This document shows positions 6,392-6,432 of a stretch of 64,000 nt of DNA, piece after piece. Made by a program: the position numbers and the translations under genes. The number at the start of each line of letters is the position of its first letter. Within the stretch, counting starts at the first letter, position 1. Location of the stretch: positions 1 through 64,000 of the forward strand of contig JAJFIV010000015.1 of assembly GCA_021774625.1 (NCBI GenBank), in the 5' to 3' direction. This DNA comes from Alphaproteobacteria bacterium. GTDB taxonomy: Bacteria; Pseudomonadota; Alphaproteobacteria; Sphingomonadales; JAKSBY01. A model generated the notes under the pieces. The model ran no database searches. It was not told the origin of the DNA and worked only from the letters and a program-made list of their open reading frames with translations.

Positions 6392-6432
6392 GCTCCCAAA
6401 GCAGATGCGCTACCAGGCTGCGCTACTCCCCG
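6392..6432 (-). other. 5' half of tRNA-Pro(TGG), candidate attachment-site remnant
   Basis: Read on the minus strand from 6432, the sequence has an acceptor 5' strand CGGGGAG, a D-arm GCGC-AGCCTGGTA-GCGC, the 5' anticodon-stem strand TCTGC and a loop TTTGGGA containing anticodon TGG. After the next two bases (GC) the match stops, so no 3' anticodon strand, T-arm or acceptor 3' strand follow. It sits 20 bp after the integrase stop. I read it as a tRNA half left by integration or rearrangement. No 3' half is seen in this window. Confidence 0.75.

Follow-up and report, generated by a model that had tools for sequence, protein, structure and literature searches.

Introduction

In the Islander collection of 3919 candidate genomic islands, the tRNA fragment is a 3' one in 3760 cases and a 5' one in 159 (PMC4383910, in extract). 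Section 7 of PMC6563490 likewise describes recombination at the 5' region as considerably less frequent, citing Zhao and Williams (2002) on the point. The pTN3-like archaeal integrases have this polarity, the tRNA being then expressed from the integrase promoter, and a similar situation is said in the same extract to be seldom met in bacteria (PMC8371274). Here we describe a 64-kb stretch of DNA (hereafter the window, positions 1–64000 of contig C7 in a 2.99-Mb alphaproteobacterial draft genome, G000, of 35 contigs) in which the 5' half of a tRNA-Pro(TGG) gene lies next to a truncated tyrosine integrase gene. The locus is a decayed member of the minority class of 5'-fragment insertions. The likely explanation, and the best of those considered, is an insertion of reversed polarity through crossover in the anticodon loop, with the element supplying the promoter and 5' half of the gene. 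It is in this respect like the element of Zhao and Williams (2002), which, to judge by the title and by its citation in another paper, reportedly recombines with a tRNA gene in its 5' region.

The correspondence with described systems is close and incomplete. Like the Islander 5'-fragment islands, as these are presented in extract, the locus has a tyrosine integrase and an anticodon-loop site, and, if contigs C1 and C7 are adjacent, its 5' fragment is found upstream of the intact gene and points the same way; unlike them, its ends fall on two contigs of a draft genome and its integrase is truncated (PMC4383910). As with the pTN3-like integrases, the rebuilt tRNA gene would acquire a new promoter, but those systems are archaeal and use the integrase promoter, whereas the integrase here sits at the other end of the element (PMC8371274, in extract). 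The target itself has precedents: tRNA-Pro(TGG) is the listed site of three Paracoccus prophages, in an extract that does not state the polarity (PMC6536676), and phage phiLM21 integrates at the 3' end of tRNA-Pro(GGG) (PMC12429752, in extract). In the literature extracts covering tRNA-Pro prophage attachment sites (attP) in Alphaproteobacteria, a promoter-carrying 5'-half attP at tRNA-Pro(TGG) was not met, which is no proof of absence. Insertion in this manner is uncommon but already known, and several phages use it at tRNA-Pro.

A displaced 5' half and an intact copy

The tRNA half lies on the minus strand, with its 5' end at position 6432 and reading leftwards to 6392. As the initial annotation had described it, it is the 5' half of tRNA-Pro(TGG), comprising the first 41 nt of the gene (standard numbering 1–40) and extending two bases beyond the 7-nt anticodon loop, 20 bp from the integrase. 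ARAGORN detects no intact tRNA in the window. A 40-mer taken from the half has two zero-mismatch matches in the genome, the window itself and C1:187420-187459, and the latter belongs to an intact tRNA-Pro(TGG) (7385-7461 of the extracted locus L033) that is the sole intact copy found in the genome and lies 2.7 kb from the end of contig C1. The identity between the two extends over an exact 48-bp block made up of 7 bp upstream of the gene and its first 41 nt (window 6392-6439, minus strand; L033 7421-7468), so that an intact tRNA gene and a displaced fragment form direct repeats, of which the window copy would be the attR attachment site. Such a repeat with an intact gene elsewhere had been predicted and is present, although the exact block begins GCTCCC and the leading A of the repeat first proposed falls outside it. 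The matching 3' half had been sought to the left of the window; it does exist in the genome but on the other contig, since C7 begins at window base 1. A search allowing up to 3 mismatches finds no tRNA-Pro 3' half apart from the C1 copy. The 3' half thus occurs once only, within an intact gene, and the displaced 3' fragment of the usual island is absent.

A 48-bp exact match by chance is not in question. Because the tRNA bases are conserved across many species, only the 7 extra bases and the position of the block are informative. The upstream heptamer CCTATGT was found in none of the 27 relatives that carry a tRNA-Pro match (59 were searched), and a second copy, whose presence in relatives would have spoken against an island, occurs in none of the 59.

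The genes to the right of the half identify it as the old chromosomal one. The half is followed by a region (6440-6496, minus strand) that separates it from a thioesterase of the 4HBT family (6497-6910) as in relatives, where it is the native upstream region of the tRNA gene. Beyond the thioesterase lie a DUF192 protein (6907-7437; both assigned by family search and conserved in relatives) and a conserved protein with cold-shock-like repeats, here named csp by eye (7480-8034), all on the minus strand. In 9 of the 27 relatives an intact tRNA-Pro has an orthologue of csp, DUF192 or the thioesterase no more than 1.5 kb upstream (the five best matches per locus were read), and in two more the thioesterase is farther away (8.4 kb in G002 and 2.5 kb in G015); in the same-family genome G001 the DUF192 contig ends without a tRNA. 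An intact tRNA-Pro at the corresponding spot in relatives had been expected, and the placement of the right-flank genes upstream of it there marks the window half as the chromosomal 5' half in its native place.

The C1 copy, in turn, has new DNA upstream. Its 5' side consists of an A+T-rich arm, an IS4/5-family transposase fragment, an RHS fragment and a DUF7660 protein, after which the contig ends. Together with the synteny of the window half, these fragments give the configuration expected of reversed polarity, in which the chromosomal 5' half is displaced and the intact gene has acquired a different upstream region. Upstream of the C1 copy the sequence TTGCGC-N16-TTAAAC resembles the promoters of tRNA-Thr(cgt), tRNA-Ala(cgc), tRNA-Pro(ggg) and tRNA-His of the same genome; a simple promoter scorer was not informative, and this and the other promoter statements are readings by eye. 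The new front half and start signal of the working tRNA copy are probably element-borne, and the element-side promoter would then drive the C1 tRNA.

The integrase remnant and the proposed integration

The integrase gene (5661-6371, plus strand) points at the tRNA half and is convergent with it, its stop codon at 6371 lying 20 bp before the half. Its product matches PF00589 (E 1.1e-32) and the integrase family PHROG 1, placing a tyrosine-family enzyme at one end of the element, albeit one truncated at its N-terminus. In an alignment with six homologues, homology begins near 5705-5735, inside the DNA-binding part, so that the N-terminal third is missing; the open frames of homologues in the loci fetched span 291-479 amino acids. 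The R, HxxR, GH and Y motifs, which we take to be the catalytic ones, are retained in the alignment. From its sequence the protein is probably inactive. No intact close relative was found in 385 genomes of the class, where the best match has about 45% identity over part of the protein; the best values were 43% in a Microcystis phage and under 60% among plasmids. Two adjoining minus-strand frames of 109 and 201 amino acids (4748-5761) look like one broken gene with no Pfam family, the start of which overlaps the truncated end of the integrase.

These features suggest the following course of events. An element, phage or island, with a tyrosine integrase would have entered tRNA-Pro(TGG) by crossover in the DNA of the anticodon loop, its attP carrying a promoter and a copy of the tRNA 5' half in place of the usual 3' half. 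On integration, the chromosomal 3' half would have come to lie behind the promoter and 5' half of the element, forming the intact gene now on C1, while the chromosomal 5' half would have been displaced to its present position between its old upstream genes and the convergent integrase of the element. The N-terminal part of the integrase would have been lost afterwards, leaving the element probably fixed. The half-tRNA accordingly stands as an element edge, as first proposed. Of the two origins originally offered for it, reversed polarity with crossover in the anticodon loop is the better; a later deletion is not needed. The end of C1 and the start of C7 would bound one element, whose integrase-side end would occupy positions 1-6391, and the orientation of C1 fits an element lying between them.

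Parallel cases in bacteria and phages

The same architecture is complete at other loci. Two copies of the 5' half were found in three of the 385 class genomes (133 with a match), namely G000, G153 and G284, and, with a shorter pattern, in one of 396 genomes of the order (202 with a match, our own included). In G153, from another family of the class, an NDUS4 gene and tRNA-Arg(TCT), the conserved flank, lie downstream of an intact tRNA-Pro(TGG), and a 46-bp repeat of its 5' half lies 5.8 kb upstream, with phage-tail remnants (a tail-fibre J fragment) and an RTX/pectate-lyase-like gene between the repeats. None of the four open frames tested in this remnant matched an integrase family. G284 was rejected as a further case: both of its 5' halves belong to intact tRNAs at contig ends.

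A search of IMG/VR by an exact degenerate 5'-half pattern returned at least 120 stretches, which divide into 105 intact loci, 14 with the 5' half only and 1 cut by the end; 6 of an initial 20 half-only stretches proved intact on reading and were moved by hand. Among the matches listed, 11 of the 14 half-only loci have a convergent integrase on the anticodon side with its frame ending 9-23 bp away, and 9 of the 105 intact loci have any integrase within 4 kb. The 14 are not all independent, as the integrases of L259 and L268 are identical in the tree. In one provirus contig of 39,968 bp both ends are visible: an intact tRNA-Pro stands at 209-285 near one end, and the 42-bp block 245-286 recurs identically at 39861-39902, there as a 5' half only and with a convergent integrase. 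The related contig L281 has the attP form, with a phage arm, the 5' half and an integrase arm, and its arm is 94.7% identical over 169 bp to the tRNA-side arm of the provirus. Upstream of the half, 7 of the 14 listed loci (L206, L215, L243, L259, L263, L268 and L281) have, again by eye, a TTGC-type box followed after 16-17 bp by a TA-containing box, as does the intact provirus copy (L219). As a separate observation, closely related phages are represented in IMG/VR by their attP (L281), attL (L219) and attR (L282), and the phage arm carries a tRNA-type promoter.

A tree of 49 integrases was built, from which L215 (102 amino acids; one of the 11) and one of the nine intact-locus integrases dropped out. 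Seven viral 5'-half integrases group with one from an intact tRNA-Pro locus (support 97/92), two of the remainder pair elsewhere and one forms a long branch. A single clade for all 5'-half integrases was considered and rejected: the label requires 3 changes without the window integrase and 4 with it, so that this polarity apparently has more than one origin. The sister of the window integrase is that of Microcystis phage Mvi-Yong1342-1 (99/98), and its identity to the viral 5'-half integrases is 24-47% where tblastn aligned them. This rare polarity has thus been met repeatedly at a single tRNA, in several phages and in two bacterial genomes.

Weighing the alternatives

Several observations count against an insertion of reversed polarity at this locus. 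C1 and C7 are separate contigs of a draft assembly, in which their continuity is not visible. The locus matches the IMG/VR 5'-half contigs in target, polarity, integrase gap and orientation, with a tRNA-type promoter in several of their attP arms; unlike theirs, its integrase falls outside the main viral 5'-half clade, and the forks that would join it to that group are weak (81/79). The upstream region of tRNA-His in the same genome ends CCTATG, so that the 7 matching bases upstream may represent a leader motif and are weak evidence. The similarity between the presumed att arms is also weak. The putative integrase-side arm (6334-6391) has GGCACA/GACACA motifs and shares AACGAAACG and TTGATGTTA with the C1 arm; two common 9-mers in 150 bp were reached by 28 of 3000 shuffles, and sharing of this kind by 11 and 15 of 4000 random genome windows, which is suggestive only. 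With 100-bp arms the shared-word test is weak (183 of 3000), and a local-alignment test is not significant (42 of 300).

A further objection comes from the DNA on the 3' side of the C1 tRNA. Of 30 class loci read, 18 have NDUS4 beside tRNA-Pro, a widespread arrangement, yet this flank is not the conserved NDUS4-tRNA-Arg(TCT) pair, which sits at C33:5461-5976 (L107) behind an ABC transporter pair. The C1 tRNA is followed by a DUF2231-like gene, a multicopper oxidase, a TolC-like gene and then an M48-peptidase/rne region (names by eye), and the M48 gene adjoins tRNA-Pro in no relative, the nearest on a shared contig being about 60 kb away (G030). As to an uninterrupted site in relatives, the upstream flank now in the window was found in those 9 of 27, and the downstream flank of C1 differs from theirs. 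As the C1 flank departs from the conserved pair, a further rearrangement has to be supposed. An inversion may have parted tRNA-Pro from NDUS4; a single one could explain the displacement of both and would bring the oxidase and ABC genes back together, reading the same way.

One alternative is that C1 gained another complete tRNA-Pro gene, by arrival or duplication, after which the native gene became dispensable and was cut by an element of the usual polarity or by a deletion beside the integrase. The C1 copy does have a host-type tRNA promoter and lacks the conserved 3' neighbours, and with tRNA bases so conserved the identity alone does not prove recent copying. However, the native gene is cut exactly at the anticodon-loop crossover zone, beside a convergent integrase, as in the 11 viral loci; two copies occur in none of the other order-level genomes searched, and the 7-bp match remains. 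We regard such a history as unlikely. A misjoin caused by the 48-bp repeat, the true state being an empty site with the element elsewhere, is suggested by the draft state of the 35-contig assembly and the transposase-like frame at the end of C1. Both junctions, however, are internal to contigs of 94 and 190 kb, and undoing the join would still leave an element with promoter, 5' half and integrase, which is the same kind of attP; an artefact is very improbable. An ordinary island of the usual polarity whose regenerated 3' half was lost later is barely credible. Some integrase homologues in other genomes do lie tail-on to intact tRNA 3' ends (L110, L111, L130 and L133), but this history leaves unexplained both why the intact C1 copy has new DNA upstream and why the half ends exactly where it does, immediately beyond the anticodon loop.

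Possible consequences for the host

The locus offers a clear and checkable case of an element that replaces the promoter and front half of a tRNA gene with its own. Tentatively, and with somewhat less than even confidence, we suggest that temperate phages of Alphaproteobacteria repeatedly evolved attP sites combining a bacterial-type promoter with the tRNA-Pro(TGG) 5' half. Lysogeny would place the host gene under a phage promoter, and once the integrase had decayed, the only intact tRNA-Pro(UGG) would be lost along with the element end, which would hence be kept as a captured promoter. This raises the questions of whether a tRNA gene is expressed differently in lysogens and whether decay of the integrase locks such elements in place.

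Flanking mobile sequences

The contrast drawn initially between the left 6.4 kb of the window and the right side does not appear as a separation by guanine-plus-cytosine content. An IS110-family transposase fragment (PF01548) lies at 493-852 on the minus strand. Copies of a repeat of some 50-74 bp (92-97% identity) are found at the left end of the window (882-955), at the C1 end (L033 9921-9994) and on C33 (L107 2774-2824), and frames resembling RAYT transposases (named by eye) stand at the ends of C1 and C33.
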